Below, one piece after another: positions 5,401-44,656 of a DNA stretch of 64,000 bases (position 1 is its first letter; the number at the start of each line of letters is the position of its first letter). The notes under the pieces were generated by a model. That model was not told where the DNA came from and searched no databases. It was given only the letters and a program-made list of their open reading frames with translations. A program made the translations under genes and the position numbers. Source of the stretch: Acanthamoeba lenticulata. Its lineage: Eukaryota > Discosea > Longamoebia > Acanthamoebidae. The stretch is from positions 1 to 64,000 of the forward strand of contig NAVB01000045.1 of NCBI GenBank assembly GCA_002179805.1, given 5' to 3'.

Positions 5401-8400
5401 CGGCGTGCCGGCCATCAGCTGTGCAAACGCCTCCTTGATCCTTTCCCTGCGTGTGTGACATTCCATGAATAAAAATATATATTAAAAGTGCAATGGGGCG
5501 TAAGTACGGGTCGCCCTGGAGGGACTCGGCAAGCTCGTGTTCGACGAAGCGGGTGGCCTCCTCGAACAGGGCCGCGTGGTGAAAGAAGAAGAAGGGCAGA
5601 CCGACGCTCTCGTCGCCGTCGACGGACATGGCCGCCGCGGCGCTGTCCTGGTCGCCTGGCGCAGCCGCGGCCGCGGCTGCCGCGGCTGCCGATGAGGACG
5701 ACGACGACGACGGTGGCGGCCATCGGAAGGCCGACGTAGGAACGCTCTGCGGGTTGAGGTAAAGCGACGTCAACTTCAACACCCGCACCGCCTGCACCAC
5801 GTCCTCCTGTTCACGCCATTGGCCACACGGCACGTGTGAGCGAGAAAGTAAAGAAAGAGAAGGAGTCGAAGAAAAGGGAAAAAGAAAGGCCGGGAGCGGA
5901 CCTTGACCCGATCGAGGCCGAAGAGGACGACACGCCGCTGGTTGTGTTCGTGCCGGTGGGTCCCGGACGCCAGCGGGATGGGTATGTCCCGCACATACCG
6001 CCGCAGCCGCTCGGCCTTGTCCTGTTTCACGCGTAACAATTGGTCAGCTCGAGCTCTTCCGGTATTTTTTGTTTATTATTTTATTTTATTTGTGGAGTTG
6101 AGTCGTACCTGGTCGGGCCACGAGGGCTCAAACACGCCGGAAGCGATGAGGTGCCGCACAAACGCGTCGTGCGAGAAGAGGTCGTGTCGGATCAGCTCCC
6201 CAAAGAACGCCACGATCTGCTGCGCTTCTGCTTGCGGCCGCCGCCAATCGTGAGTGATTTTAAAGACGACGACGACGACGGAGCATCATGCGTGGGGACG
6301 GAGGGTTCATCAATCACAAACGAACCGTCGTCGGAGCGGTCCTTCTCGAGGAAGGAGAGGAGGAGGGCCTGCAGCTCCGGCCGGTGCTTGGTCTTGCGGT
6401 CGACCACGTCGCAGTGCCGCCGGAGCACAGCCGCCGCCGTGAAGGCCCGGTAAGCCACCTCCTTCCGGTGCCGCGTCGTGGCCCATCGGCAGACCATCCG
6501 CATGATCTCCATGTCGACCTTCTGCTTTACGATTAAAAATTAAAAATGAAATGCTACAAAAATGCGAAGAATAAAGGCGCGCGTACGCTGTCCGGATAGG
6601 CGGTGAGCGAATGCTCGCACCACGAGGGGAAAAGCCTCCTGTACAGGGTGGTGATGCTCACGCCCGGCCTCCCGAACGAGTCGAGCAACTGCTCCCCGCA
6701 AAAAGTTAGAATTATTCATTTAAATTTGTATTTGACAAAAAGAAAAAATTAAGAAAGAAAAAGGCGAACCTCGACGACCGTGGCCATGGTGAGGTGGGTC
6801 GAGTGATAGCTCGGCGGCGATCGCACGTTCGCCCGCGCCTCGTGCAAAAGGCGCTGCACAAGCCAGCCACGAGGTTTCATGAGACCAACACGTACGTAAG
6901 ACACGGGTGGCGTGAGTGGCCAGGAGGGAGCGCGTACGTTGTATTTGGCAAAAAGAGGAAAATTGTAGTGCTGGTCGCCGAACTGCGCGGCGTGGAGCGG
7001 CACCAGCAGCTCCTTGTCGATGTGGTACAACACGTCTGGCGGCACCACCTGCATTTGTGATGTGCGTTACGATGATTGGTGTTAACGAAATTCAATATAT
7101 ATATATATTTAAAAAAAAAGGAGGGGGTTCGCACCTGGATAGCATATCGCAAAACATTTGAAACGCTTTTGTACAAATAGTTTCGGCTCTCCCAGTCGCT
7201 CAGTACGTCCGCGCCCACCTCAGAAGAAAGCTGGCAATAAAAAGAAATATTAATTGCGTGATTTGTTTTCTTGAAAAAGAAAAAAAATGGAGGGGAAAAG
7301 CGGGGGTTGGTTGTGTACCTTGGAGAGGGCGGCGATCGCGTAGCGGACAAACCGCTTGACTCGCGGCTTCCACTTGCACATGTCGGCCAGGTAGTTGAAG
7401 AGCACCGAGAGGATGAGCGACTGGTCGTCCAGCGAGGAGAAAAACGCTGAAGAAGAAGAAGAGGATGATGATGAAGAAGAAGAAGAAGAAGTGTAGCTGG
7501 CAAGCTTCTCGACGAGGCGGTCGAGCAGCATCTTGCGCGCGAGCAATCGCTCGCTGTAGTTCCAATGGATGAGGTTGACCGTGTAGGCAAACTTGGCGTA
7601 CCAGGCCTCCAGCTTGGCCTCGTCCTCGTTTGCGGGCGCAAATCCGCCTCCTCTCCCGCTGCCACTTGCTCCTCCCGCCATCGTCGCCGTCGTTGTTGTC
7701 GTTGTCGTCGTGGTGGAGGTCAACGACGCGGCGTCCTTCTCTCCGTCGATGGGCGCGGCGATGTTGGCCAGCGCTGCTGGCCGCAGCGCGTCGTCGGGCG
7801 CGGCCTTGGGCGTCGCTGGTGGCGGTTGCTTTGGTGTGCCCATTGATGATGTTGAGGAAGAAGATGAGGATGTGGAGGCAGAAGAAGAGGAAGAAGAAGA
7901 AGGTCGTCGCAAGCGAAGGATGGAGAGCAAGTATTTGCTGGCCTGCGCGCCGTTGCTGAGGCCCAGATTACTGCGTTCGGTGAGGAGATCGAACAGGTAG
8001 TCCACGATTGTCTTGGTCCAGTCCTCCGCAACGTTCACTCGCGTACGCTAATAATTAATTTTGGTTTTCGATGAGATTTTAAATATCGAAATATCGAAAT
8101 TATTTTTTAAAAAACTTGAAAAACGGAACAGAACGCACTTTGTTGCCGGTTTGCTTGAGCCTATTGTTGGCGCACTGTGCGAGCTTGATGAACCATGTCG
8201 CGCGCAGCAGCGGCACCTTGCGCACGGCCAACACCTCAAGCAGCTGCGTGTGGCGGTACCTGTCGTCCACCACGAGGAACCCTAGTGTGAGCACAGCGCC
8301 AGTAGCCTTCTTGTTGCTGCTTTTGCTGCTGAAGCGAGTACCCGTAAGGAGCGCGCGTGATGAGCAGGTGCAGCGGTTCAGACTCGGCGAGGCTCTGAAT

Positions 8401-25559: not shown

Positions 25560-28500
25560 ATGAAGGTGGTGCCCAAGATTCCTATCTACGACCTCGACCG
25601 ACTCGACTTGTCCACTATCCCCTCGGCCCGGCGTGCCCAGCTCCTGCCTCGCGAGGCTCGAACCCCCACTTCGGGCCCGCGACACGCCAGGCTGCTTGCT
25701 CAGGATGAAGCTGATGACGACACACAGAACAACAAGAATGCCGCCAACTGCGCCGCCATGCCGCCACGTGACTACAGCCGTACCTGCGCAAAGTTGCGCC
25801 TGGTCGAGCTTGGCATGCCCGCGGCTGGCGTTGAGGATATGATCAGCATCGATAGGTTGAACGAGGAGTCCATTCTCCTCAACCTCCAGAGGCGTTACGA
25901 GGACGACCTCATCTATGTACACTTGTCTTCCTCTCTTTCTCTCGGTTCTTTACGGCTTTGTGCCTGACTTGGTGCCCCGCTGTCTATATGACAGACATAC
26001 ACCGGCCCCATCCTGGTGGCAATGAACCCCTACAGAAGGTTGCCCATCTACACCAAGCCTTATGTGAAACTATACAAGCAACAACCCGTTGGGTCCCTCC
26101 CTCCTCATGTATTCGCCGTCGCCAGCGCAGCCTACAACGCGCTTCTGGAAAAAAAGTCCAAGAACCAGGCCATCGTCATCAGGTGCCTCCCTTTACATCA
26201 TGCGTAGAAAAAGTCATGTTTTACTTTTGTTTATTTTTTAATTTTTTTTTAATTTTTGCTTTTTTGGCTTTTTTTTCGAGACTCACGGGCCGTCTTGCAC
26301 GTGTAGCGGCGAGTCAGGCGCGGGGAAGACCGAAACCACGAAGCTGATCATGCAATTCCTGGCCCAGTGCACTAACAAGCACACTGAGATCGAGAGTCGC
26401 ATCCTGGCCGCCAACCCCGTGCTGGAGGCCTTTGGCAACGCCGCCACCGTCCGCAACAACAACTCCTCTCGTTTCGTACGTACAAGAGAAGCCCCTCATG
26501 AGCTCGCACCTCACGCGCCTAACCTGTCCACTAGGGCCGCTTCATCGAGATTCGCTTCAGCGAGACATGCACCTCCATCGAGGGCGCCAAGATAACCAAT
26601 TGTACCTTTCCTCTTCCTCCTCCTTGCTCGGGAGTTGGTCTGGTCTTGTGTTGACCGGGCCACTCGTTACAGACCTTCTCGAGAAGTCACGCATCGTCAA
26701 GCAGGCCAAGGGCGAGCGCAACTACCACGTCTTCTACATGTTTCTCGCCGGCTGCACGCCTTATGAGAAGAAGTTGTACAGCTTGAAGGAGCCGCACGAG
26801 TACCACTACTTGAACCAAAGCGGCGTCTACACGCTACCCAACGTTGACGACAAGCTCGACTGGGCCCGCGTGAAGGTACGGACTTGCTTGTGCGCGGTCT
26901 TGTCTGGCCAATCAATCTCACGCACTTCGTGCGATGAACCCGGGTCAGGACGCAATGGTGGGCCTCGGCATCGCCGATTATGACATGAAGAGCGTGTACT
27001 CGATCCTTGCCGGGATTCTCAGCCTGGGCAACATCAACTTCATCAGCGGCAAGGACCGCACGCTGATCGAGGACGAATCCTGTACGTTGCTCCCTTTTCC
27101 CTCCTGGTCGTACATTTTTTGGACCAATTTCCTGACGTCGTACGGTCCCAGGGGTTGAAACGACCGGCAACCTGCTCGGAGTCCTGCCCGCTGTGCTCAA
27201 GGACGCTCTGCTGACCCGCTCGATCAAGGTCGGCACCGAGCAGATGACCATGCTCCTCAAGCCCGCCGAGGTGAGCACCAATCCCGCGATGGCTTCCGTC
27301 CTTCGCTTGTGATCCTCACACTTGGGTACCGTGCAGGCCGTCGATGCGCGGGATACGCTCGCCAAGGTCGTCTACGGCCGGCTGTTCAACTGGCTCGTGC
27401 AGCAGATCAACAATCGCATCAAGGGCACCTTCTGCGAGGCCAATCCCTTCATCGGCATTCTCGACATTTTTGGCTTCGAGAACTTTGCCGTACGTCTCTT
27501 GGCTGCAGCTTCGTCCCAACTTGAGGCTCCATGCTGACTTGTTATTCTCGTGCAGACGAACAGCTTCGAGCAGCTGTGCATCAACTTCACCAACGAGACC
27601 CTCCAGCAGCACTTCAATCGCCACGTCTTCACGTACGAGCAGAAGGAGTACGAGCGCGAGGGCCTGAAGTGGGAGTCGATTACGTTCAACGACAACCAAA
27701 AGTGCATCGACCTGCTCGAAGCCGTACCTCTACTCACCTGCCCCGCCTCTCGCGCCTCCGCCAATTGCTCATCGTCATTGCGTGAACAGGTCACGCCGCC
27801 CGGCATCCTGCCCCTGCTCGACGAAGAGGCCCGGTTCCCCAAGGGCTCCGATGAGAGCTTCCTGGCCAAGGTGACCGAGGTCCACAAGAAGCAGCCCCAC
27901 TTTGAGACGCCCGCGCGCCGCGCGCCCTGCTTCACGGTCAAGCACTACGCGGGCGACGTGTCGTATCAAATCGCGGGCTTCTTGGAGAAGAACCGGGACC
28001 CGCTGGGCGCTTCCATCATCAGCTGCTTCCAGAGCTCGAGCATCGCGCTCCTCCGCAAGCTGTTCCCTGAGGACCTCAGCACCCCGCGCACGCTTCGCGG
28101 CGGCCCCAAGACCATCGCCCTTTCTTTCCGGGTACGCCACACCGCTTTCTCGAGTGTGGCATGATCGTTCTCCAGTCGCAGTACTGACAAGGCAAGTCTC
28201 TCGTCCTCGCGTGGCCCAACGCAGATGCAATTGCGCTCGCTGATGACGCTGCTGAGCCAGACCGAGCCCCACTTCATCCGATGCATCAAGCCCAATACGC
28301 TCAAAATCCAGCGGTGCTTCGACGCCGCGCTGGTCTACCATCAGCTGACCTACGCCGGCATGATGGAGACCATCCGGATTCGGTACTGCGAGCTCTTCTC
28401 CTCTGTGTAGACTTGTTCTTCACAACGTGCGCTCATCACCCGAGCTCTTGTGATCGATCTGGTTACCTTGCAGCAAGTCGGGGTTCCCCATTCGCGAGAC

Positions 28501-31500
28501 CTATCAGTCGTTCTGGTTCAACTACCACGCGCTCACCCAGCGCACCAAGTTCCTCAAACCGCACAGCGGGAACTACACCAAGCCGTGCCAGTGCGTGCCA
28601 CCCGCCAACGTCTTCCTCACCTCTCTAGTCCTTTCCGCTCCCATCGGCTCACACAAGCGCACACGATCATACACGACCAGGATCCTCCTCACTGCGCTGG
28701 TCGAGGAGAACAAGGGCCTGCTCATCCTTGGCCACTACTACGCCGGCCAGACCAAAGTCCTCATGAAGGACGGCCAGTTTGCCTTGCTCGACAGCGCGCG
28801 GCGCGTCGTCCTCGGAGGCTACGCGCACCTCATCCACCGGGTACTTGCCCCGGGCCTGGGACCGATCCACTGTCCATCCGGCGCCATGGAACGGTACTCA
28901 CCAGGTCGTGGTCCGAGCAGGCGCTGCGGTTGCATCGCGACCGGCAACAGTTCTTGCGCAAGCGGGCTGCCGCCACGAAGATCAGCGCCGCCTTCCGGGC
29001 CCACCGCGCCCGGCTGCAGTGGCTCGAGGTTCGAATCTCGCCCTTTGACCAACCTCGACGATGCCATTTGCCTGACCTGATTTGGGCTTTGTCGCAGCTG
29101 AGGGCCCGCATGCGCGCCGCCAAGCGCCTCCAGGAGGCCCAACAGAAGGCCGCCCTCATGGTGCAGGCCAACTGGCGCAGGCGCCAGGCCAAGCGCACCT
29201 ACGAGACACTTCGCGACGAAAAGGAGAAGAAGGAGCGCGCCGCCCGGGCCGCACGCGCGGCCGAGGAGGAGCGTGCCGCCATGGCCACACGGGCCGCGCT
29301 CGAACGCGAGGAACGCGAGCGGGCTGCACGCGAATCGGCCGCCGCAGAGGCCGCCGAGCGCGAGAAGGAGAAGGAGCTCGAGCGCGCTCGCGCTCTCCAG
29401 GAAGCCGATAAAAATGCGCACAACAACAGCAAGGCCGACTTCCCGGCAGCGTGCATGGTGCCGTCGGAGGAGCAGGTTCGCCTGGAGGCCCGCATGCGGC
29501 TGCTCGAGAGCGAGCTTGAGGAAACGCTGCGCGTGCTGCGCTCACTCGTCTCCTCCAAAGCCAACCCGACCGCCGAGTGGATGCACGAGCGCATTCGACG
29601 CCTCGAGAGCCAGCTGATGACGCACCACAACCAGGACCATCCTCACCTTCATCAACGCGTTGCTGAGGATGGGACAGCGGCTCCGGCGCAAAAGGAAGAG
29701 GACAGGTGGCAAAAGGCCAAGATTCGCAGCCTCGAGGAGGACCTCAAGGGCAAGGACGAGCTTTACGCCGCCACGCAGCTGGTGGTCCGCAACCTGCAGG
29801 ACGACCTCAACGCGCTCACCAGCAAGGTTTCTTCCGCGAGTGGTGAAGGGTGGATAGAGGCCAGGCACTGACATGGTCTTTCCGCCTTGCGGCCGGCAGG
29901 TTGCGACGGAGGAGCCGCGAAGCAAGGCCAAGCTGCAGTGCCTGGAAGAGGCCATTAAGGAAAAAGACCGGAGCGTTGCCGCGACCAGGACCGCGATGGG
30001 TGCCCTTGAGGAGGAGCTCAAGGCCCAAAACCAAGTCCTCGCCTCGACCAAGGTTCGCCGCCCCGTCTTTGTCCACAACGCGTTGGCCTGCGAGGCTCAC
30101 TCGGTCGCGGACCAGGTGACGATGGTGAGCCTGGAGCAGCAGCTCAAGGAGAAGGACCAACGCCTGGTCGACGCTCTCAAGGAGAAGGATCAAAGCTTCG
30201 CCGCGACTAGGACCGCGATGCAGGCCCTCGAGGAGGAGCTCAAGGCCAAGGATCAAGTCCTTGCCGCGACCAAGGTTTGCCGCTTCATCGCGATTGTCTG
30301 CGAACTTGGCGTCTCACTCCAAACGGTTGGATTACAGGAAATGATGTTCGGCCTCGAGGAAGAGCTCAAGCACAAGGACAAGAGCCTCAAGGCCAGCCAG
30401 GCCGAGGCGCAGAGGATGCAGGAGGAGCTCAGGCAAACGAGCCAGATGCTCGACGCCAGCAAGGTGCGTCCCCACCCCAGCATTGCACGTAAAGGCGGGT
30501 CGTGGTGGTCGGCTCACCTGATGTCTGTGGTGCAGGGGGCCACGCTGAGCCTCCAGGCTGAGGTCAAGCAGCAGCACGAGATCCTCACCTCCACCAAGGT
30601 ATGCGGGCTCATTTGGCCCAAAGGCCGTTCAGGTGAACTGACAAGTCGCGTAGGCGGTGGTGAGCTCGCTCGAGTTGGAGCTCAACGAGAAGGCCGGTCT
30701 GCTCGCCTCGACCAAGGTATAGCCAGTCCGCGCGCTGTCGAGCAGTGCGATGAAGATGTAACATAATAACCGGTGGGCTGGCCGCAGGCGACGGTGCAGC
30801 GGCTCGAGGAAGAGGCACAGGAGAGGGACAGCAGCCTTGTGTCCATGCAGGCCACGGTGCAGGGCCTCGAGTTCGAGATTGCCGAGAAGACCCGAATCCT
30901 GGCCGACACCAAGGCCGTCGTGGAAAGCCTCGAGGAGGAGCTCAAGCAAAAGGACAACCGGCTCGAGTCCAGCAAGGCCGAGACGCAGAGGCTGCAGGCC
31001 CAGCTCGATGAACAGGCTAAGCTTTTGGCCGCGACCAAGGTCGAGAGCCCTTTTGTTCGTTCTGCTTGATGTGCAGCCGCACCTGACTCTCGATGGCTGC
31101 GCAGACCGTGGTGGAGGCTCTCGAAGCCGAGCTCAAGCACAAGCTGGGCGAGCTCGCCGAGCGTAAGGCTGAGGTGACCCGGCTCGAGAAGCTCCTGCAG
31201 GAGAAGGACACGATTCTTGCCTCCACCAAGGTACATCACCATCATGATTGTCAAATTATCATCATCGTTATCATTTTTCTGATTTTCTGATTTCTTGTGA
31301 GCGCCTGCAGGCCGTCGTGCAAGCTTTCGAAGTCGAGCTCAAGCACAAGACGGACGAGCTCGCTGAGCGGAAAGCTGAGGCAACCCAGCATGAGCAGGAA
31401 CTGCAGGAGAAGAACACGGTTCTCACCGCGACCAAGGTACCCTTCGTCCTCGTCCTCGTTCTCGTCCTCTTGGTAGTCATCCCCTGATCGCTTCTGTCTT

Positions 31501-33984
31501 CGTTTTCCTGCAGGCGGTCGTGCAGACGCTCGAGGCTGAGCTCAAGACCAAGGACGCTATTCTGGCCTCGACCAAGGACGTCGTGCATAGCCTCGAAGTC
31601 GAGCTCAAGAACAAGACAGACGAGCTTGTCGCGCGTCACGCCGAAGTGGCCCGTCTCGTGATGGAACTGCAGGAGCGGGACGTTGTCCTCGCCTCGACCA
31701 AGGCCACGGTGGAGAGCCTGGAGGAGGAGCTCCGACGCAAGGACGAGCGCCTCGCCGCCGCCAGCGCGTTGGAGGCCGAGCTCAAGTCCCAGGAGGCGAT
31801 CCTGGCTTCCACCAAGGCTGTCGCGCAGCGCCTAGAGGCCGAGCTTGAGGAGCAGTCTCAGCGCTTCGCCGCCGCACAGGAGGAGGCGAGTGGGCTGAAG
31901 GACGAGCTCAGCGCACGGGACGAGAAGCTCGCCAGTTCGCGTCTGGCCGTACAGAGCCTCGAGGATCGACTCGCCGAGAAAGAGAGCCTCTTCACCGCGA
32001 CCAAGGTAAACAGCTGCAGCCTTTCAAGTTCATATTGCTTGCTTGTTTGCTCAAGCGCTCATCCTCATTCATCGTGGGACCAGGCTGTGGTGCAGAGCCT
32101 CGAACACGAGCTCAGGGAGCGATCGGACCAGCTCAGCGCTGTTCGGGTTCGTTCACCTCTCCTCTTCCACTCCTTGGCCGTGCCTTCATTGACGGACGAA
32201 TCCATTCCCTCAGACCGAGTCGCAGGGCTGGTGGGAGAAGCTTCGCCGGAAGGACGACAAACTGGCTGGCGCTCGGGTGCGTGGCCTGCCCTCCGCCTTC
32301 GTGTCGGCCAATCTTGTTGGTGATGGTCATGTGCTGACGACGGGTATTGTTGGTCATCCACAGCTGACCGTCATGCGGCTCGAGGAGCAGATCAAGGAGC
32401 ACGCTTCGCTCCTGGCCTCGGCCAAGGTCGACCCAGCCTTGATCGCTCTCCCCCGCTTTGGGCGACGTTGAGCTGACATGCTTGGGGCCGGGATGGATAA
32501 ACAGGCCAAGACAAGCTGCGTTGAGGAGGAGCTCATGCACAAGTCCAACCTGCTGAAGGAGCTCAGTGCTGCCCGGCCTCAGCTGGAGGAGGAGCTCGCC
32601 CGCAAGACCGACGAGCTCGCCTCTGCGCAGGTGAGCCCATATTCGTTGTTGTTGTCGTTCATCTGCGAGGTCATCGTGTGGCTCACTTAAAACGTGACCC
32701 GACAATGCAGAGCACGACACGCAGCCACAAGGACGAGCTCAGCCGGCGCGACCAGGATCTTGCCGCCAGCCAGGCCGAGGTGCGCAGCCTCAGCGAAGCG
32801 CTCAAGCAGAGAGAGCAAGAGTTTGTCAGAGCACAGGTCCAACCTCCCCCTAAGCTCATGCCTTGTGTGTTGATGTCGCAATGGCGCTGACACACCACGT
32901 ATGTCTTGTGTTGCAGGCCGTCAGCTGCACGTTCGAGGAAGAGCTCCGCGAGAAGAGCCGCACGCTGGTGGCACTCCAGGCCGAGATCAACACCCTGCGG
33001 CTCACCTTTGGTGCGCACGAGCAGCAGTGGAAGGCGCAGCTCCAGAGCCTCCAGGCACAGCTGCTCCAGGCTTCCTCCGCCGTTGCTTCGACCTCGTCCT
33101 CATCATCGTCGTGGTCATCGACCTCAGCGTCACCCGCGCCGCCTCCGCCGCCACCGGCGGCCACCGTCAAGACTCACCAGCGGACCTCACCAGGAGGCTC
33201 GTCCACCGCCGGCTCTGCGGCCCCAGCGCCGATCGGCACCGCCGCGCCCCCGCCGCCTCCGCCTCCACCGGCGGCCAAGGCCGTGGTGCCCAACCCGAGC
33301 GAGTCGCTGCTCAAGCTGCGTCAGCGGGTCCCGCCCCCAGCCGCTGCCGATGTCGAAGTTCAGGCTTCGGCCAGCGGCGCACCTCCGCCTCCCCCGCCTC
33401 CGCCGGCGGCCAATTCAGGCAGCTCGGGCAACTCGCTTGCCAAGCTGCGCCAGCAGACTGCGCGCGACGCCTCGGCCGGCAACCAACGCCAGGCTCAGCA
33501 GCATCAACAGCAGAGCGGATTTTCGATGGACCGCCTACAGCAGCAACTGCTCGAGGCCATTGCACGCCGCACGCACGCTGCCGAGGCTTCCGCCCCACCG
33601 CCCGTGCCCCCGCGCGAGGACGCGCCGGCTGCCCTGGGTCGCGGGCCCTGCGCCTCGTGCGCTTCCTGCGCCCCCGCCGCCGCCGCAGCTTCTGCTGCCG
33701 CTCCCTACGAGGCGCCTCCGCCGCCTCCGCCGGCCAGGGTAGACTACGGCGGCTTCCGGCCGGCGTCGTCAGGGCTGCGGATGGCGCACAAGCCCGCAGG
33801 CATCAGCCGCACGCAGTTCGCCGACGTGCCGCCGCCGCCGCAGCAGCCTGGAGGATCGTCGACGACAACCACGAGCGCTAAGCCGCGCCAGTCTGTTGGG
33901 GCACTGATCTCCAGGTTCGGGGCCAGCAGGAAGGATGGTGAGGCAGCCCCAAGTCCGTCTGTGTATTTTGTACAAATTAACTGA
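25560..33984 (+). CDS. Unconventional myosin with modular coiled-coil tail
   Basis: An actin-based ATPase motor. Exons read in frame: 25560-25916, 25995-26182, 26307-26475, 26535-26601, 26673-26875, 26949-27081, 27152-27270, 27337-27489, 27556-27723, 27790-28131, 28225-28382, 28474-28590, 28681-28840, about 28918-29028 and 29098-29826, then the tail exons. Motor motifs are complete: [20 protein letters not shown]-loop [12 protein letters not shown], switch I NNNSSRFGRFIEI, switch [11 protein letters not shown], then [13 protein letters not shown] and the actin-binding [10 protein letters not shown]. Two IQ-like stretches follow ([14 protein letters not shown] and [14 protein letters not shown]). 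After them come a Glu/Arg-rich helix, a long coiled coil (29900-33060) and a Pro-rich segment (33130-33760). About 90 residues of Ala/Asn-rich leader precede the motor. I cannot assign a myosin class. The stop shown is the one met if the donor at 33938/33939 is not used; the chain may instead continue (see the RKPM exon array). Confidence 0.88.
30536..32836 (+). repeat. Myosin-tail exon modules of 63 bp (21 residues)
   Basis: Tail exons are whole multiples of 63 bp. Exons of 63 bp: 30536-30598, 30654-30716, 32084-32146, 32214-32276 and 32364-32426. Exons of 126 bp: 31105-31230, 31311-31436, 32505-32630 and 32711-32836 (also 30338-30463 just upstream). One exon of 252 bp: 30788-31039. The 492-bp exon 31514-32005 is eight units less four codons. 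Every intron is phase 0 and falls at the same place, after a residue block like LASTK or LAATK. The unit reads roughly AVVQSLEEELKxKDxxLASTK. Hydrophobic residues sit at unit positions 3, 6, 10 and 17, which fits three heptads. This is the mark of repeated duplication of a single coiled-coil exon. Confidence 0.85.
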
Positions 33985-35677
33985 AAATAATAGCATAAAA
34001 TAAATACGGCACAAAAAGTAACCTTTTGAAAAACGAAAAGTTACACTCAACATGAACAGGCTTAGCTTTGCTGGGCTCGCGGCCCGCAAGCCCATGAAGG
34101 CTAGCGCAAGCCTACAGGCGTTGGGTGGTGAAGGTGAGGTCCTCTTTATTTTATTTTAAGTGAACTGCGAGAGAGCGAGAAAAGCACAACAACCAACCCC
34201 AGGGAAGAAGAAGGGAGAGAGCCAGAACGTTGGTAGAGGATGGAATTTGAAGGCTTGACTGTGCGCAAGCCCATGAGGGCACCAGCCGTGCTGGTGCTGC
34301 CAGGTCTTGCGCTATGAGCTCTCGTCCTCCTTGTGGTTGTCCTGACTCATGCCCTTGTGTGCATGTTGTGGTTGGGGCCACCAACGCCAGATACCCCTGT
34401 TGTTACTGCCCAGCCGGAGAGAATAAGCGCGCACAAGCCCCTCCAGGCGTCTCTCCTCCACCAGCAAGGTACTAACTCTCGCCAAGCAAAAAGGTTTGGA
34501 TGAGTTCAGCGAAACTGCACCACAAATTTCGGTTTCGGCCCACCGCTGCAAACCAGCCTGCACCACAACCAACGCAACTATGGCTTCAGCACGCCTCGCT
34601 GTGGGCGGGTTGATCGCGCGCAAACCCATGCGGGTTCCTCCTTCTGGCGAACCAGCAGCGCACCAGCAGCAAGGCAGAGCCACTGTCTTCTCCCCACTTT
34701 GGTGGTGCTGTTTCTGACTGGGCCATTTTTTTGTGGCGTTGGTACAGATGTGTTCAACGACGTTGTCAACGCCCTCTCCTTAGGTTCCTGGGGCGCGACC
34801 CCGCCCGTGGCAGGTACTTCACCCTCTAGGGCTCTATCTGTTTCACTTCATTCTGCGTTTAGTGAAAATGCAATCTCGGGTCGGGGGACAAAGTTCTGTG
34901 CTTTTGTTGTTTTTGCGTCATTTTGCTTTGTTCGTACGACGATGCAAAAGAGACGCGCCCGCGGACTGGATGCGCATAGGCCCATGTCGGCCCCTCAGGC
35001 GTCCTTGTTGGACCTGAACCCGACACGTACGACCACAACACGTGGCGTCACGACACTCACAAACCCGAAATTTCAACTCTGCACCAGCGGGCGCTGCTGT
35101 TCTGTGCATCAGCATGTTCATGAAAAGTTTCTGAAACCTGACGAAATGTGTTTGTGGTGTGTTTACGTCGTCCACAGCCGAGCCACCAATGTTGGGCATG
35201 AGCAACACCGCGATGCCGCCGACGGTGATGGCCCAGCAGCCCGCCTTCGCGGGCCTCAGCGCTCGAAAGCCCATGGCCGCCCCGTCAGCAACCGAGCCGC
35301 CAATGTCGGGCATGAGCAACACCGCGATGCCGCCGACCCAGATGACCCAGCAAGCAGCCCATGCGGGCCTCAGCGCTCGAAAGCCCATGTCCGCTCCATC
35401 AGGTTTGTTCTCTGCCGATTGCGCATTCCACGAATTCCTCATTTATCATGTCATAACTGACTTTTGAAAATTATCTTTTTAATCCCAAACGCAGGCGATC
35501 ATCACGCCCCCAAGCAACAGAGCGCGTATGCAGGCCTGAACGTGCGGAAGCCCATCAACGCCGCCAACACCCTGAATGCTGGCCCGACAGTGATGCCTGT
35601 CGGGCCAGAATTACAACAACGCGCATCGTCGAGCGGTCTGGCCGTGCGCAAGCCCCTCGCGGGTGGTCTATCGATGA
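33763..35677 (+). repeat. Exon array encoding the repeated 'GLxxRKPM' motif
   Basis: A recurring short motif, roughly (A/S)GLx(A/V)(R/H)KP(M/L)xA. Copies: [14 protein letters not shown] (33763, inside the last myosin exon), FAGLAARKPMKAS (34064), GLTVRKPMRAP (34252), ISAHKPLQAS (about 34424), GLIARKPMRVP (about 34606), GLDAHRPMSAP (about 34963), FAGLSARKPMAAP (35253), HAGLSARKPMSAP (35367), YAGLNVRKPINA (35529) and SSGLAVRKPLAG (35628). Most exons can be read with phase-1 introns at both ends: 34041-about 34132, about 34252-34304, about 34391-34468, about 34494-34671, 34751 onward, 35178-35402 and 35496-35677. Symmetric phase-1 exons can multiply without breaking the frame. I know no named domain with this motif. 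It is probably part of the same gene as the myosin upstream and/or the NACHT region downstream; it might also be a small separate gene. Confidence 0.65.
35178..35402 (+). repeat. Tandem 114-bp repeat (two copies) in one exon
   Basis: Two near-identical 114-bp units, 35178-35291 and 35292-35402, the second cut by the splice donor. Each encodes 38 residues: EPPM(L/S)GMSNTAMPPT, a variable spacer, then AGLSARKPM(A/S)APS. The frame is kept and changes are few, so the duplication is recent. Confidence 0.85.
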
Positions 35678-35780
35678 TGTGCGTCAACGTCGGCCTTCTT
35701 CCTCCTCGTCGTCTTTATCACCATCACCTTCTTCATCGTCGTCGTCGTTCTTGTCTGACGGCCACGCCTCTCTCCGCTCC

Positions 35781-38700
35781 AGGAACTGCATCCTCCCCAC
35801 GATCGTCGCGCGTCGCGGCATGACGGCGCAGACCCAACAGCTCCAGCAGTCTTACGGGCAGGTGGATGCCTCGTTCGACTCTCCTGCCGCTGCCCAAGTC
35901 CAAGCCCATGACCTGATGCAGGCCGTCCTGGGCCTCCGGATGGCTCAGTTCCAAGCCTCGGCGGACCCCGAGCTGGTCCAAGAGCTGGCCAAGCTGCAGG
36001 AGCTCGTCGCGCTGGGCTACCTCCAGGCCGAGCAGGCCATCCGCCGGCTCGACGAGCTTGCAGCGGCGGCTGGTGGCGATGCTGGTGGCGATGGTGCTGA
36101 CGTCAGCATCAACATCCGCCTCAACACGCCTAGCGGCTACTCGGCCTCGCCCGCGCGGGACATGACCTACGCCTTACAGTCCGCCGCCTCTGCCGCCGCC
36201 GTCAATAACGACGACGACGACGGGCTGCGAGTCGAAGCCTTCGTGTCCTCTTCCTACACGTGCGGCCCCACTTGCCTGTCGACAAAGCTGCTGCTGTTGT
36301 TGTTGTTGTTCTCGTTGTTGATGAACGCTGCGACCACCAGGATGAACGTGTGGGGCGGCTATGGCGGCGTCTACCTCGAGGGCCCCCAGGCCGCCGCCTC
36401 GGGCACGGCGTCGCGGCCGCGGCCGCAGCCGACCCAGTCCAACAGCCGCAACGTCCGCGTGTTCATCTCATCCACCTTTAGGTCCGCCCAACTGACCGGC
36501 GGCCACGCAGCGCACAGCCCTGACCGCAATGCTTATCTTGTTGTTGATCTGCGCAGGGACATGGAGATGGAGCGTGAGGAGCTCATGAAGTGGGCCTTCC
36601 CGCGGCTCCGCAAGTTCTGCAGCGAGCGCGGCGTCTTCCTCACGCAGGTCGATCTGCGTTGGGGCATCACCGAGGACCAGTCCCAGGCCGGCGACACCAT
36701 CAACATCTGTCTCCGCGAGAGTACGCCCCGCCCTCATTACGCCCCAATGGTCCATGACGACTCACGCATGACGCGGCCGAACGCTGCAGTCGACCTGTGC
36801 CGGCCCTACTTTGTGTGCATGCTGGGCGAGCGTTACGGCTGGGCTCAGCCCGACGAGCAGTGCAGCGACGAGCTCCTGCGGAGGACGTACGAGCGCGCGA
36901 CGCCCAACTTCCCGTGGATCGCCAACTACCGCGACCGGAGCATCACCGAGCTCGAGATCCGGCACGCGCTGCTCAACGACTCGACCGACCGCGCGATGGA
37001 CCGCTGCCTGTTTTACTTCCGCCAGCCCGGCACTCCCATCAAGGGTCTCGACGAACGCGACCTTAAGCTCAAGTCCAAGCTCGACCGCCTCAAGGACGAG
37101 ATCAAGAGCGCCGGCGCTCGCGTCGCGCCCTACAAGACGTACGTGAAGGCCGACCGGCTGAGCTCGCACGCGCCCCATGACTAATCGTGGAGGTGGACGG
37201 GGACAGGCCGTCCGAAATGGCGCTTAAGATGGTGGAGGCGCTTGAGGCAGCCATCGACCAGGACTTCCCGAGGCGCGAGGCGCCCACGCCGCTCCAGCGC
37301 GAGCGGGCAGCGCATGAAGCCTTTGCGGCCAGCCGCGCGCGGGTCTACGTCGGGCGAGGCCACTACTTTGAGCGCATTGACAAGCACTTGGCCACCCACC
37401 CGTCCAAGCCGCTCGTCATCTGCGGTATGTCGTTCATCATCTCGAGACGATGACGCGAGGCCTGACCTGGGAGAGCTCGTGTGTTTGTGTCTGTCTGTCT
37501 CTTGCTTGCAGGCGAGAGCGGATCGGGCAAGAGCGCGCTGGTGTGCAACTGGGCGCTGGGCTATGTGGAGCGTCACAAGTCCGAGCGGCTCGTGCTGACG
37601 CACTACATCGGGAGCACGGCGCAGAGCACCGACCTGGCGGGCCTCCTGCGGCGGATCATGGGCGAGATCAAGGACTTTTACGGCGTGCCGGACGAGATCC
37701 CGACCGACCTGCGTTCGCTCATCGACGCCCTCCCCGACTGGCTCACCGAGGCGGCCAAGCGGGGCGGCCTCGTCCTCGTTCTCGACGCTCTCAACCAGCT
37801 TGAGGACGGAGGCAAGGTACGATCTCGCATTCTTTGGATGCTTCTTGCTTGCTGGGGCACGTGCTTATGTTTTTTGTGGAATGCGTGGTATGCTCTTTCA
37901 CACAGGGCGAGGTGCACGAGCTGGGCTGGCTGCCGCGCGAGTACCCGAACGGCGTGCAGGTGGTCGTGTCGACCCTGCCCGGTCGCTGCATGAGCACCAT
38001 CCAGCAGCGCGGCTGGCACACGCTCCAGGTGGAGCCGCTCAACGAGACCGAGCGCCAGGCGCTGGTCCAGGAGTACATGGCCCTCTACGGCAAGTCCCTC
38101 AACGCGGCCCAGCTGGCCCGCATCATCAAGGCCCCGCAGTGCCAGAACCCGCTCTTCCTCCGCACCTTGCTCGAGGAGATGCGGTACGTCGTCAGCGTTG
38201 CATAGCTTGAATTCCTGCATTGGCCGTCAAGGCGCTCATCACGCTGACTTTATCATCATTCTGCTTGGCAGGGTGTTTGGCTCGTTCGAGGCGCTGGACG
38301 CCAAGATCAGCCACTATCTCACGGCCAACACGCCGCCGGAGCTGTTCAACCTGGTCTTCTCCCGGCTGGAGGGCGACTTTGAGACCAAGCACGCCGGCAC
38401 CAGTACGAGAACGATCGCTCCCATCGTCATCATCAGAGCTGACGTGTCGGACGCTGACCTGCACCCCGTGTGTGTGGCCTGCTTGAGCTCAGGCGGCAAG
38501 TCGCTGCAGGGCCTCGTGGGCGACATCATGTCGCTGATCTGGGTCAGCCGCCGCGGCCTCACGGAGAGCGAGCTTCTCGACATTCTTGGCATTCCGCACT
38601 CGCTCTGGTCGCCGCTGCATCTGGCCCTGGCACGTCCACGCCCACACCTTCGAGTCCCTACTTTGCCCACCTTGATCTCACTCTTGATGGTGGTGTTGCT

Positions 38701-41433
38701 GCTCGGGACTGCGTGCAGGAAGAGTCGCTGGTGAGCCGGTCGGGCTTCCTCACGTTCTTCCACGACTACATGCGGCAGGCCGTCGAGGCGCGCTATCTGC
38801 GCCCGCAGAACCGCTACAACCACTACCGCCGCCGCATCATCACCTACTTTGACCGGTGCGTCCCTCGTCTACGACGTCGTCTGTCTTGTCCCGGCTGCTG
38901 GACTGGCGATGGTGATGGTGACGCTCGCGATGAGCAGGGCCGAGGCGGGCGTCCCCGAGAGCCGGCGCTGCGAAGAGGTGCCCTACCAGCTCATGGCCAG
39001 CCAGGACTTCGAGGGCCTCGCCGCCTGCATCACCGGTGCTGCGCCGCTCGAACCCGCGCCAGTTGGCTCATTTCGGCGTGTGTGCTGACCTTCTGCGACA
39101 TACTGTGCGCACAGAGCTGGAGATGTTCAAGCTGCTGTCGGCCGACGAGTACCGGTTCGACTTGTATCAGTACTGGCAGCAGGCGGCCAAGCACACGGAC
39201 CCGGAGGCCTACTTCACCGACCGTTTGGCCCGCTTCGAGGCCGAGGCCCGTCCGACGCCCACCGAGCTGGCCGCGATCCTGACCTCGGCCGGCAATTTCC
39301 TGCAGGTGCGGCCGCTCGAGCCGAGTTGCAAAGGCAGACCTCTCGTCTGTGCGGTGTGTGGCCTGACTTCCGTGTGGCGGGGCACCCCAACAGGACATCG
39401 GCGCTTTCCTCAACGCCGAGACCTACCTCAAGCGCGCGCTCGAGATCACGGAGCAGATCTACCAGCTCGACCCGTGGCACTCTGAGGTGGCCAGCAAGCT
39501 CGACGCCCTTGGCTATCTCTACCGCCTCCGGTACGTCTCCCTCAGATCGCCGTCGTGGTTGTCGTCAGCGTTCTGACGGCTGACTGCTGCTGGTCCCCAT
39601 CCGACAGCGGCAAATATGCACTGGCGGCGCCGCTTTACGAGCGCGCGATGAAGATTCGCGAGAAGACGCTCGGACCCGAGAATCCCGAGTTCGCCTCGTC
39701 CGTCAACAGTTTGGCCATCCTCTACCGCCACCAGGTTTGACGCCCTTTCCTCCGGGCAGAATGTGGAGAATGCGACAGCGTGGTTCAAATGCCAATAACG
39801 TTTGATGGTGTGCTCTCTCTCGGGCAGGGCTTGTACGATAAGGCGGAGCCGCTCTACATCAGGGCGCTGCGCGTCCGCCAGAAAATCTTTGGCGAAGTCC
39901 ACGCGGACATTGCGCAGAGCTTCAACTCGCGTACGCACACACACAGTCACACCCGGTGCGCCGCAGCTATTCCTCACATGGTCCCACGCGCAACATCCCA
40001 GTGGGCTGTCTGAACCAGGACATGGGCCGCTTCCGCGAGGCCGAGGACTACCTTCTGCGCGCTATTTCCATGCGCGAGACCCTCTTCGGGCCCAACCACC
40101 CTGACGGTGCGCGGCTTCTCCTCTCCTGGCCTCGCCTGGCCGCCGCTCTGGGGGCCTACCACGAAAACAAGTTGTTTTTATTGACGACATGGACATCGTC
40201 ACAGTGGCGATGTCGCTGGCCAACCTGGGTGGGCTGTACATGGACCAGTCGCGCTACGACGAAGCCCACCCGATCTACGCGCGGGCGCTCGCCATCTACG
40301 AGAGCGTCTACGGGCCCGTCCATCCGTCCGTCGCCCAGTACGCGGCTCCTCCCGGCGCAGCGATGCCCCTTCACTGTATGACCGACTGACCCAACGATCT
40401 GACGACGACGCGCAGGACGTTCAACTCGATGGCGGGCCTGGCGCAGGAGGCCGGCAAGTACGACGAGGCCGAGGCCCTGTACACCAAGACGCTCGCCATC
40501 CGCGAGCGCCTGCTGGGCGACTCCCACCCGGAGCTGGCCCTCACCCTCAACGACTTTGCCGTTCGGCTCCTTTCCCCTTTTTACACGTGTCTCAATTGAC
40601 CGCTTTGGTCTAAACGCACACACACGCGCAGGTGCTGTACGCGCGGCAGGACAAGTACGACAAGGCCGAGCCGCTTTACCAGCGCGCCCTCTCCATCCGC
40701 GAGCGCGTCATCGGCGTGCACCACCCGGACTACGCCCAGTCCCTCAAGTACGCCCTCTCTTTCTTTGTCTTATCCCAATAATTGCCAAATATACAGAATA
40801 ATAATAATTTATTTACAAAAATGGGAAAATGCAGCAACATCGGATCGCTGTACCAGGACATGGGCCAGTACACGCGCGCGCTGCCGCTGTTCGAGCAGGC
40901 CCTCCAGATCTGTGAGACCGCCTTCGGGTCGCGCCACATGGACGTCGCCAGTACGTCGCCAGCCGCCCGTGTCGTCCTCGAGATGCTCATCATCCTCATC
41001 ACCATTACGTGTGTCGTGGACAGGCTCGTTGACCAACATCGCCGGGTGCTATCAGTTCCTCAAGCGCTACGACGAGGCCATCCCGCTCTACCGGCGTGCG
41101 CTCGACATCTACGAGGACCTCCTCGGGCCGGTGCACGCCGACGTGGCGGTGACGTCCAACGACTTGGCCGTGCTCTACTTCACCACGGGCAACAACGAGC
41201 AGGCCGAGAAGCTCTACCGCCGCGCGCTGGAGATCTACGAGAAGATCTTTGGGCCCGCCCACCCGGACGTCGGGCAAGCGCTGGCCAACCTGGGCGAGTT
41301 CTTCGCGGCGCAGGGCAAGCGCGCCGAGGCCCGCCAGTGCCTCGAGCGCACCGCCGGGATCTACGCGCAGACCTTTGGCGACGCCCACCCGCGCGCGCAG
41401 GCCGCCAAGGCCACGCTGGCCCGGTTTGCCTAA
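35781..41433 (+). CDS. DUF4062-NACHT-TPR protein, nephrocystin-3-like
   Basis: A multi-exon STAND-type NTPase. After a short helical segment (from [12 protein letters not shown] at 35821) comes a DUF4062 domain: [12 protein letters not shown] spliced to [15 protein letters not shown] (36482-36555 intron), [15 protein letters not shown], then [16 protein letters not shown] 50-bp intron (37143-37192) leads to the NACHT NTPase with P-loop [10 protein letters not shown] (near 37515) and Walker B-like [14 protein letters not shown] (near 37780). A winged-helix-like region is followed (39300-41430) by about nine TPR units of the kinesin-light-chain pattern, such as [18 protein letters not shown]. 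The order matches animal nephrocystin-3 and TEP1-like proteins. A possible own start is the ATG at 35821. However, the exon at 35781 also joins in frame (phase 2) to the RKPM exon ending at about 35677, so the N-terminus may lie far upstream. The stop is at 41431-41433. Confidence 0.8.
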
Positions 41434-41698
41434 GGAGCAGCCGCTTGCTTCTTTTTGTTTACGGCCGCCTTGCTTTTGTTCACGGGTGGACATAAAAGCT
41501 GTGTCTTGGCCACCTTTGTTCTTTTTTGCCGGAGCCTTACTTCATTTAGCTCGGAGTTTGTTAATGGGTCACGCGTAACAAACGTATTCGGGTTGCACCA
41601 ACCGGGGCAAGGTGATTATAGTAAAGGGTTAGAAAGCTCCGACGCGCTGCAACTCACGCGTCGGGGGGCTATGGCTTTTGCCAGCTAGTCTGCTTCTG

Positions 41699-43046
41699 AT
41701 GCACAACGTACGCAAGCTCAGGTTCGGTGTTGTAGGGGCATGCTGCCTCCTTTTCTTGTGGTGGATTTGCTTCGCGTATATTGGTGGAGACAAGTACTTG
41801 GGAGCTCTAATGATTACCCGCACGCCTGCCGGCGTGATGCGGCTGGTGCGGGCTGAGCCTACCCCTGGTGGGTCCGCGAATGTGTGCCAGCTCAGCTCCA
41901 CCCTCCGCCAAGTCCTCATCATTCGCTCTTGTGGCGAAATCACGCAGGTCTTCTTCTTCTTCTTCTCCTCCTCCTTACATGTTGTCGTTTTCTCCCCTTA
42001 CCTGGGAACTCGGGGGGTGCACCCAGGACAGCCCTTGCGCGCTTCTCTGGCCAAATACGCCACCGACCTCCATCTCCAGGACCATTACGACGTGTGGCTG
42101 CTTCACGACGTGGGCAACAACACGAGCCCAGAACGGCTCGCCTCGCTGGAAGAGCTTCAGCGCGAGCAGCCCAACCTGGGCGTGTTCCTCTATGACACGG
42201 CCGCCGTCAAGGCCATGCTCACCACTGCGACCTACATCCTTAATGACCCCACGCCCAGCTTCTGGTTCCACGACGCATCCATTATGCTGTGGGCCAGGCA
42301 ATGCCGACCAGACCTCTGGGCTCCTTCTTCCCCAGTCGTGCCCTATCACGGGTAAGTTCCCCCCCCCCACCCACAACACTCATCTGTGCTTCTTATTCAC
42401 GAAGCGCGTCCTTTGGGCGAATGAGAAGCCACGGGAGGCAGGGAGACCTGTTCATGTGGGTAGTTGAACAGGATGCGATGTACTTTGGTGACGTGACTGA
42501 CTTCCTCGACGCCCACAGTAACAATGGCGCTGGTCTGTACCCCTTTCGTTATTTTTGTTATTTCGTTGTTTTTGTTTTTGTTTTTATTTTTTTCTAACGC
42601 CAATGTGTCGGCAAGCAGACTACATCGCCCACTACTACCCTCTGCCTAAGCACTGGCCTCACAGCAAGAAGACGACATGGCATCCACCGGCTGACAAAAT
42701 GCTGTTCAAGCGCGAACACGTGGAGCGCTACTCGACCACTCTTCTGCGCTTCTTGTACCACATCGTACAGCTCAACGTGGTGGCCTATGGCGAGATGTTT
42801 GCGTCGACCGTGTGCAACCTGCAGCCAGAGTGGTGCGTCATGTCGCTCCTGAACAAAAAGTTCATCGGCCCGGCCTATGACTGGAATACGGGTCTGACGG
42901 ATGACCAAGTGGCGGCCATGAGAAGTGACCCCAAGCAGCAAGGCAAGTGGAACCATGCGGTCATATCGCTCAAAAGTCGGAGCTGCAAGTCGAGTATCAC
43001 AGCCACCAAGCCTATTGCGCTGGCATCAAATACAAACACAACGTAA
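41699..43046 (+). CDS. Type II membrane protein, possible Golgi transferase-like
   Basis: Four exons join in frame: 41699-41947, 42032-42351, 42426-42532 and 42619-43046. The start MHNVRKLRF is followed at once by a hydrophobic stretch GVVGACCLLFLWWICFAYI, a signal anchor with a short basic cytosolic end. The lumenal part includes HYDVWLLHDVGNNTSPERL, FWFHDASIMLWARQC, LFMWVVEQDAMYFGDVTDF and HYYPLPKHWPHSKKTTWHPP. The layout (short tail, anchor, stem, globular domain rich in Trp, His and Tyr, and acidic pairs) fits Golgi glycosyltransferase-like proteins. I cannot name a family, and no DxD motif is certain. The gene ends 120 bp before the convergent 5S rRNA gene. Confidence 0.65.
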
Positions 43047-43483: not shown

Positions 43484-44656
43484 TCACCAGCACGAGTCCA
43501 CCGCCGCGGCTGCGGCTACCATCACCAATGCCACGCTCACGCTCACCACGACGCCCACAACAAGGCCCACATCCAGCGATCCGCCGCGAGTGCCGCCGTC
43601 GCCATCCTGGCCCAGGAGCAGGCCGAGGCTGATGCTCGGGTCGTACTCAAGCGAATGGCGGAAAGGAGGGAACGTGAGCACCAGTTCGCACGACGGGGCC
43701 GAGCCGCTGTTGGACTCCAGCAATTGTGATCGATGGGCAGAAGCACGCCGTCGACGAGGGCTACGTCAAACACCTCAACCACCATGGCCTGCTGAACTGA
43801 TGCCGCTCCTGTGGTGGAGCTAGCGCTGGTGAGGGCAACGAAGTAGGTGGTCATGTTGGTCTGTGGCGTGTTCCGCGCTCGCCCGACCATGTCGCCCACT
43901 TGGATCGACTGCAGACTCGAGCGCATGGACAACACCGGGCCGGGCGACGTCGTGGCGTTGTCGGCTCCAGCAGAGGACGCGGCCGAGGAGAGGTCAACGG
44001 CAGGTTGCCCGTCGTTGAAGCTGGCCGAGGAATTGCCTGCCAGCGGCACAACGACCACGCCCGGCGCCGACGAAGGCCAAGGCGATGGTGTCACCGATGG
44101 CGTGATGGTGGCTAACGGGGAGCTCGAGACAGTCGGTGAAAGGGTAGGCGAGCTCGTGGGTGTCGCCGAGGGGGTGGCTGTGCGCGAAGGCGTGATGGTG
44201 GCGGACGGGGTAGGCGAGATTGAGACAGTCGGTGAAGGGGTAGGCGAGCTCGTGGGTGTCGGCGAGGGGGTGGCTGTGCGCGAAGGCGTCGGCGAGTTCG
44301 TCGGCGAGATCGACGGCCAGGGGGACGGCGTTGGAAGGTAGAGACCACATGCGTAGTCGGTTCCCACGGCCACCTGCTTGAACTGGTAGGGCGGTATCTG
44401 GTTGAGCACCGGGCTAGAGCCATTTCCCCAGAAACGTACGATGCCTCCCGCAGATCTACTTAAGTAAACCGCTGCCCCAGCATTCGGGGAAGCCATTGTC
44501 CTGCAAGCCGCAGGCATAATCTTGGTTTCCGACTGCTACACTCTGGAACATGACGCCCGTCGGGGGCGGGTAGGTCGCGATCCCCCAGCACCCAGTCGGG
44601 TAGTAGTCCGCCGTCACAGAACCGACCAGAGCAGCTCCGATCATCCAGCACCGCAA
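43484..44656 (-). pseudogene. RCC1-repeat, Ser/Thr/Pro-stalk membrane protein, frame broken
   Basis: Three pieces of one apparent surface protein lie in different frames. The first (44656-about 44470) has an RCC1/BNR-type repeat: [19 protein letters not shown] and CWG. The second (about 44500-43750) repeats [14 protein letters not shown], then runs into a (S/T)P-rich stalk and a globular part with [15 protein letters not shown]. The third (about 43723-43484) ends in a hydrophobic helix [19 protein letters not shown], a likely C-terminal membrane anchor. A one-base shift separates the first two near 44485, and another shift separates the last two near 43725. I found no good splice sites to explain them. 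Either this is a pseudogene, or there are sequence errors, or unusual introns. The true 5' end is not clear. Confidence 0.5.
44126..44317 (-). repeat. Tandem 96-bp repeat in the Ser/Thr/Pro stalk
   Basis: Two copies with a 96-bp period (44126 and 44222 onwards on the plus strand), encoding 32 residues of the [18 protein letters not shown] type on the minus strand. Typical of expandable mucin-like stalks. Confidence 0.75.

Follow-up and report, generated by a model that had tools for sequence, protein, structure and literature searches.

Tandem myosin and nephrocystin-3-like STAND genes, predicted in place of a single fused gene, in Acanthamoeba lenticulata

The first 64,000 nucleotides of contig NAVB01000045.1 from Acanthamoeba lenticulata (assembly GCA_002179805.1), hereafter the window, carry a myosin motor, a series of exons encoding repeated RKPM-type motifs, and a DUF4062-NACHT-TPR region, all on the forward strand. 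A preliminary description of this DNA proposed that the three might form one 16-kb gene, with the last myosin exon spliced to 34041 and the frame running on through the motif array to the NACHT-TPR half. We reach a different reading: at roughly 93% probability, and as judged from sequence, the locus holds two tandem genes of the same orientation, separated by 67 bases. The upstream gene is predicted to encode an unconventional myosin, and the downstream gene a nephrocystin-3-like STAND protein that opens with the motif array. The short gap between them is read as the myosin 3′ end plus the 5′ leader or promoter of the NACHT gene.

25560..33984, plus strand: myosin gene; 30 exons, 2080 amino acids, spliced model open; Pfam Myosin_head, 1.1e-234
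33985..34051, no strand: gap between the genes; AATAAA at 33999; divergent from a second genomic copy
34052..41433, plus strand: predicted RKPM-array/DUF4062/NACHT/NPHP3-like TPR gene; 28 exons, 1606 amino acids, open model

The motif array and its junction with the NACHT half

34052..35678, plus strand: N-terminal motif array; seven exons, scored with a matrix made from relatives
35679..35782, plus strand: intron between the array and the NACHT half; phase 2, donor 6.0 bits, acceptor 5.4 bits

The RKPM array is assigned to the NACHT gene because relatives have single proteins in which an array of this kind stands at the start and is followed by DUF4062-NACHT-TPR. A search with the NACHT-gene protein returned 311 matches, the best 120 of which were listed. 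The closest among the matches listed is P0001, a protein of 1431 residues on a 4604-base, transcript-sized contig, which begins MMMQQPSFAGLSARKPM and shares 77% identity with window residues 187-1606, spanning the array-NACHT junction. Spliced window sequence across 35679-35782 aligns to GLAVRKPIDHMTMTNCLVHTINPRRAL of P0001, and the counterparts of the piece that spans this intron are TNCLVHTINPRRAL in P0001, TNCIQPSIKPRRVM in P0002 and TNICHPHVHQRRLM in P0003. P0002 and P0011 (transcriptome open reading frames labelled complete) and P0003 and P0004 (Balamuthia) also open with motifs of this kind. The first motif follows the start methionine by 6 residues in P0003 (MLSRVSGLATNRPM), 9 in P0002 (MMNARMSTSGLAPRKPI) and 7 in the window (MNRLSFAGLAARKPM).

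The array consists of eight short motifs with the typical wording G-L-x-x-R-K-P-[MLI], namely GLAARKPM, GLTVRKPM, ISAHKPL, GLIARKPM, GLSARKPM (twice), GLNVRKPI and GLAVRKPL. When scored with a matrix of 21 motifs from relatives (six scanned, five of which yielded motifs), seven reach 16.5-23.1 bits and RISAHKPLQ reaches 7.7 bits. The preliminary description had seen the RKPM exons as a phase-1 chain whose last member joins the NACHT exon in phase 2. Both points hold: the in-frame chain from 34052 is complete, and the final exon joins from 35678 to 35783, about two bases from the numbers first given.

The ATG once thought to give the NACHT region its own start (then placed at 35821) lies at 35820, in the reading frame of the NACHT half. 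Were it used as a start, the RKPM exons would make up a short gene of their own between the myosin gene and a NACHT gene, giving three genes in all. However, intron 35679-35782 has good splice sites, and P0001, P0002 and P0003 each cross the same junction as single proteins. The best-scoring exon chain from any ATG in 34040-36800 begins at 34052 and scores 1134, compared with 1021 from 35820 (the array exons in 34200-35180 were later corrected by hand). On the exon-chain score and the read-through relatives, a separate NACHT gene from 35820 was rejected, and we consider three genes very improbable. The ATG exists, then, but is predicted to be internal, with the RKPM exons belonging to the same gene as DUF4062-NACHT-TPR.

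The automatic exon chain lost several RKPM motifs in 34200-35180 and was off at four places in the NACHT half. P0001 guided the manual correction that gave the final gene model, which hence is not independent of P0001. The accessible text of the Acanthamoeba castellanii genome paper gives 6.2 introns per gene (PMC4053784).

A refinement of the two-gene reading would give the array several alternative first exons and so yield proteins with differing motif numbers. In-frame ATGs do stand ahead of several motifs (34052, 34240, 34942), and P0001 begins inside the array, where the window has its sixth motif. Its 5′ end is possibly incomplete, or other starts are in use, and this counts against a single start at 34052. 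The stretch 34942-35026 is exon-like, with an ATG and an RGLDAHRPM motif, and 34943-35026 matches the second genomic copy at all 84 sites, yet the stretch lacks a phase-compatible acceptor and lies outside the model. Because the predicted phase-1 chain from 34052 is complete without further starts, we regard alternative first exons as rather unlikely.

A second genomic copy

The genome was searched for copies of the locus (48.5-Mb assembly, 1825 contigs). Most of 28011-43042 recurs on contig C421, at 94.5-95.4% identity in three main pieces. This second copy could be allelic or the product of a recent duplication. Strong matches to a query covering part of the array (E 9.5e-9 or better) were found in this genome only here and in the second copy, and likewise for a query with the myosin C-terminus.

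Because splice sites, frame and a mostly synonymous pattern of change are kept in this copy, the array looks coding and appears to belong to the NACHT half. Splice dinucleotides are retained for all 27 introns of the NACHT gene (25 GT-AG, 2 GC-AG), and no exon shows a change of frame. Codon differences across the gene are 49 synonymous versus 11 amino-acid-changing in 1568 codons; for the array alone they are 8 versus 4 in 228 codons. One 114-base (38-residue) array repeat is missing in frame from the copy. The two GC-AG introns lie at 34674-34747 and 38630-38718, and both are kept as such.

The proposed join between myosin and array

The case for one 16-kb gene depends on an intron at 33938-34040. 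A phase-1 GT donor after GATG is indeed present, its first intron base at 33938, one base off the number given earlier. Scored with matrices built from the 29 introns of the myosin gene, it reaches 3.2 bits, within the leave-one-out range of 1.2-11.2 for the gene's own introns. The acceptor at 34040 had been called poor, and it is: at -2.45 bits it falls below 28 of the 29 training acceptors and under the median of 0.2 for the full set of 3989 window AGs. The AATAAA reported near 33998 was found at 33999. The first RKPM exon also has its own in-frame ATG at 34052, 12 bases past the proposed acceptor, which the preliminary description had missed.

The second copy allows a comparative test of this join. 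Between the copies, the divergence of 33938-34040 is 15.8% (16 of 101 aligned sites), against an average of 3.4% and a maximum of 11.2% for the 47 introns of both genes. Within 33985-34051, 12 of 65 aligned sites differ and there are 16 gap columns; the substitution rate is reached by none of the 47 introns and the gap fraction by three. The putative myosin-array intron is thus unlike the introns of either gene. In addition, an extra G near 33918 in the second copy makes the myosin end in ...LISRFGGQQEGW and a stop, and the spliced myosin-array join runs straight into a stop. The earlier claim of an in-frame join to 34041 is not supported: the join is open in the window and its phases match, but the acceptor is weak, the copy has a stop, and the stretch has not diverged as introns do.

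A motif in the last myosin exon had been taken as RKPM-like and as a link between the motor and the array. This sequence, GLRMAHKPA, scores -9.2 bits, and 17% of 316371 background windows score at least as high. It carries one surplus residue between GL and KP and lacks the hydrophobic residue after P. As a further array copy it was rejected, its matrix score being at chance level, and the supposed link falls with it.

Several observations weigh against two genes and for the single long one. The donor is acceptable at 3.2 bits and its phase matches; the join is open in the window; its GT and AG are both present in the second copy; and the two units, myosin and NACHT gene, sit side by side in unchanged order in each copy. 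Three of the 47 introns have a gap fraction as high as that of 33938-34040 (0.165) or higher. In the second copy the AG and the ATG lie 3 bases further apart, which keeps the phase of that stretch, and the frame-breaking G sits in a G run, where it is possibly an assembly error. Finally, the gene structure is a prediction from DNA and protein comparison, and rare read-through transcripts may occur.

Known proteins were also searched for a motor and NACHT in one chain, as had been suggested. The myosin P-loop GESGAGKT occurs in none of 222 NACHT-side proteins and the DUF4062 signature SSTFRD in none of 120 myosin-side proteins, these being the listed parts of sets of 311, 1286 and 1645 matches. 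No protein among them holds both, a weak negative, as the search admits proteins of 0.55-1.75 times the query length and a fusion of ~3650 residues would be at or beyond that limit.

Taken together, no single open, conserved and plausibly spliced frame from motor to NACHT was found. The weak acceptor, the divergence beyond all 47 introns, the stop that the join meets in the second copy, the array's own ATG, the relatives with an N-terminal array and no motor, and the failure of the linking motif make a 16-kb gene highly unlikely. The motor fused to a STAND NTPase that had been envisaged is likewise not supported, as the array is N-terminal in relatives and has its own ATG, and the join runs into a stop in the second copy. 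Two tandem genes remain the preferred reading.

The DUF4062-NACHT-TPR half

36462..36965, plus strand: DUF4062 (TIR-like) core, FISSTFRDM to SITELEIRH; Pfam 51.3 bits, cut-off 24.7
37424..37801, plus strand: NACHT core; Pfam 36.8 bits, cut-off 26.7; parts 37424-37540 (intron-split) and 37769-37801
38719..41433, plus strand: NPHP3-type helical region and TPR repeats, start approximate; TPR_NPHP3 337.8 bits, cut-off 100

The DUF4062, NACHT and TPR domains claimed at the outset are all present by Pfam, above their cut-offs and in NPHP3-like order, with a TPR_12 match of 462.2 bits in the NPHP3-type region (scores from an earlier, 1583-residue version of the model). A P-loop at residues 718-727 and an hhhhD strand at residues 804-814 place the protein among STAND proteins, and together these features predict a nephrocystin-3-like member.

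The window DUF4062 domain matches the solved TIR-like domain of TEP1 (11gz_A) at E 9.9e-20, and TEP1 RSVTEMEV aligns with window RSITELEI. Both glutamates in RSITELE are present in the window protein and conserved in 10 of 10 relatives, and they are candidates for the catalytic glutamate, E1008 in TEP1; the P-loop pattern G[ED]SGSGKS is found literally in 7 of those 10. In 2026 a preprint, in its accessible text, reported that DUF4062 domains are TIR-like NADases, with activity in antiphage proteins of bacteria and in human TEP1 and no hydrolysis by purified human NPHP3, NWD1 and NWD2 (PMC13174449). The reported inactivity of human NPHP3, the closest named animal relative, counts against an NADase role for the window protein.

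Arrays in relatives

To gauge the array beyond the window, 22 relatives were picked by hand, as a non-random sample, from the 222 NACHT-side proteins. The motif count exceeds that of all 500 shuffles of the protein's own N-terminus in 8 of the 22; P0003 ties the maximum, and 10 of the 22 have zero. The strict pattern misses some repeats: P0010 is not above its shuffles though repeats worded AYTRPL/AYQKPL are visible, and P0242 scores zero yet shows SYAPRKPL. Bacterial relatives that were inspected mostly begin near DUF4062. The array wording is RKPM in the window and Balamuthia, and HREPL/HREAM in Pelomyxa; Balamuthia and Pelomyxa belong to separate phyla of Amoebozoa.

One transcript-derived, NPHP3-like relative, P0008, begins differently. 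Within its residues 1-21 (MARTKQTVRKSTGGKAPRKML), 18 of 20 residues agree with the histone H3 tail. This start reflects either a chimeric assembly or mimicry of the H3 tail in the array slot, and by the same test no other protein of the 222 listed on the NACHT side has an H3-like start.

The architecture with an N-terminal array was not found in the accessible literature on Acanthamoeba myosin with NACHT, on Amoebozoa NACHT, on nephrocystin-3 or STAND NTPases in Acanthamoeba, or on histone mimics combined with NACHT. The accessible text of the A. castellanii genome paper likewise has no mention of NACHT or intergenic (PMC4053784).

The myosin gene

After splicing of 30 exons the myosin gene forms a single open frame of 2080 residues from ATG 25560 to TGA 33984. 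One acceptor, at 28917 (GTCCGAG/CAG), is atypical and was picked by frame. The layout is a motor, a coiled-coil tail and a proline-rich C-terminus, with a full-length Myosin_head match at residues 91-754 (Pfam, 781.2 bits). Pfam gave no MyTH4, FERM or SH3 match in this protein, and besides Myosin_head just a sub-threshold ATG16 match, with E up to 0.01. The gene is predicted to encode an unconventional myosin whose motor is nearest to class VII myosins among the matches listed.

Across 30338-32836, 11 of 12 tail exons have lengths divisible by 63 bases, the equivalent of 21 residues or three heptads, the lone exception being 31514-32005. The second copy has 526 additional bases at 30714 that code for further tail-like sequence. 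Elsewhere in the genome, C123:4388-4713, beside another myosin, has 67% DNA identity to the first exon region. Contig C505 matches window 26227-27038 at 97.8% identity, with other sequence upstream of that. The similarity ends abruptly near its position 7049, at window 26227 within myosin intron 2, at an AT-rich run, and myosin exons 1-2 were not found in the part of C505 that was examined; the break is either a rearrangement or an assembly join. Elsewhere in the window, the minus strand has an open frame at 43543-44535 with abundant repeats of the PTPSPTP type.

A possible mechanism for the NACHT gene product

We tentatively propose a mechanism for the NACHT protein, at slightly less than even odds overall. 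Alongside the gene structure, domains, P-loop and both glutamates, which come from the sequence, we infer a ligand, oligomerisation, an enzyme activity and a partner for the array. The TPRs would keep the NACHT domain shut, and ligand binding would trigger nucleotide exchange at NACHT and oligomerisation. The oligomer would then gather the DUF4062 domains for NAD+ hydrolysis or a scaffold role. The array, multivalent and probably disordered, would dock a partner via avidity.

A broader idea, possible but on balance doubtful, is that the array represents a novel class of multivalent module, with an effector or docking role, carried by TIR-like-NADase STAND proteins across Amoebozoa and diversified by in-frame gain and loss of repeats, such that an activated oligomer would show dozens of motifs to one partner. 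The H3-like tail of P0008 in the array slot hints at chromatin readers as one partner class. Should activation lead the array to recruit a partner, amoebae would be a simple setting in which to study killing or signalling by sensors of this kind.

Comparison with known systems

A myosin with a built-in STAND switch was a tempting reading of this locus, but very probably a false one. In its place stands a testable amoeba DUF4062-NACHT-TPR protein with a repeated N-terminal motif, and this array is the feature most worth following.

The myosin compares best with class VII: 'Myosin-VIIa, variant 2' of Balamuthia (P0122) has 50% identity across 38% of the window myosin query. With TEP1, an NADase, and the bacterial Swarozyc (accessible text of PMC13174449), the NACHT protein shares the DUF4062 relation; unlike them, it has NPHP3-type TPRs and the motif array, and its own NADase activity is only putative. 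With the NPHP3 family it shares the domain order DUF4062-NACHT-TPR, a likeness set by Pfam models, and it differs by the N-terminal motif array. Pelomyxa proteins and the gene model m51a1_g10070 carry HREPL, HRDPL or HREAM repeats in the array slot. P0003 and P0004 of Balamuthia mandrillaris and the transcript-derived P0001, P0002 and P0011 have the whole architecture of the window protein, array included, while the number and exact wording of their motifs vary. The N-terminal multivalent array is thus a new element of a nephrocystin-3-like STAND protein.

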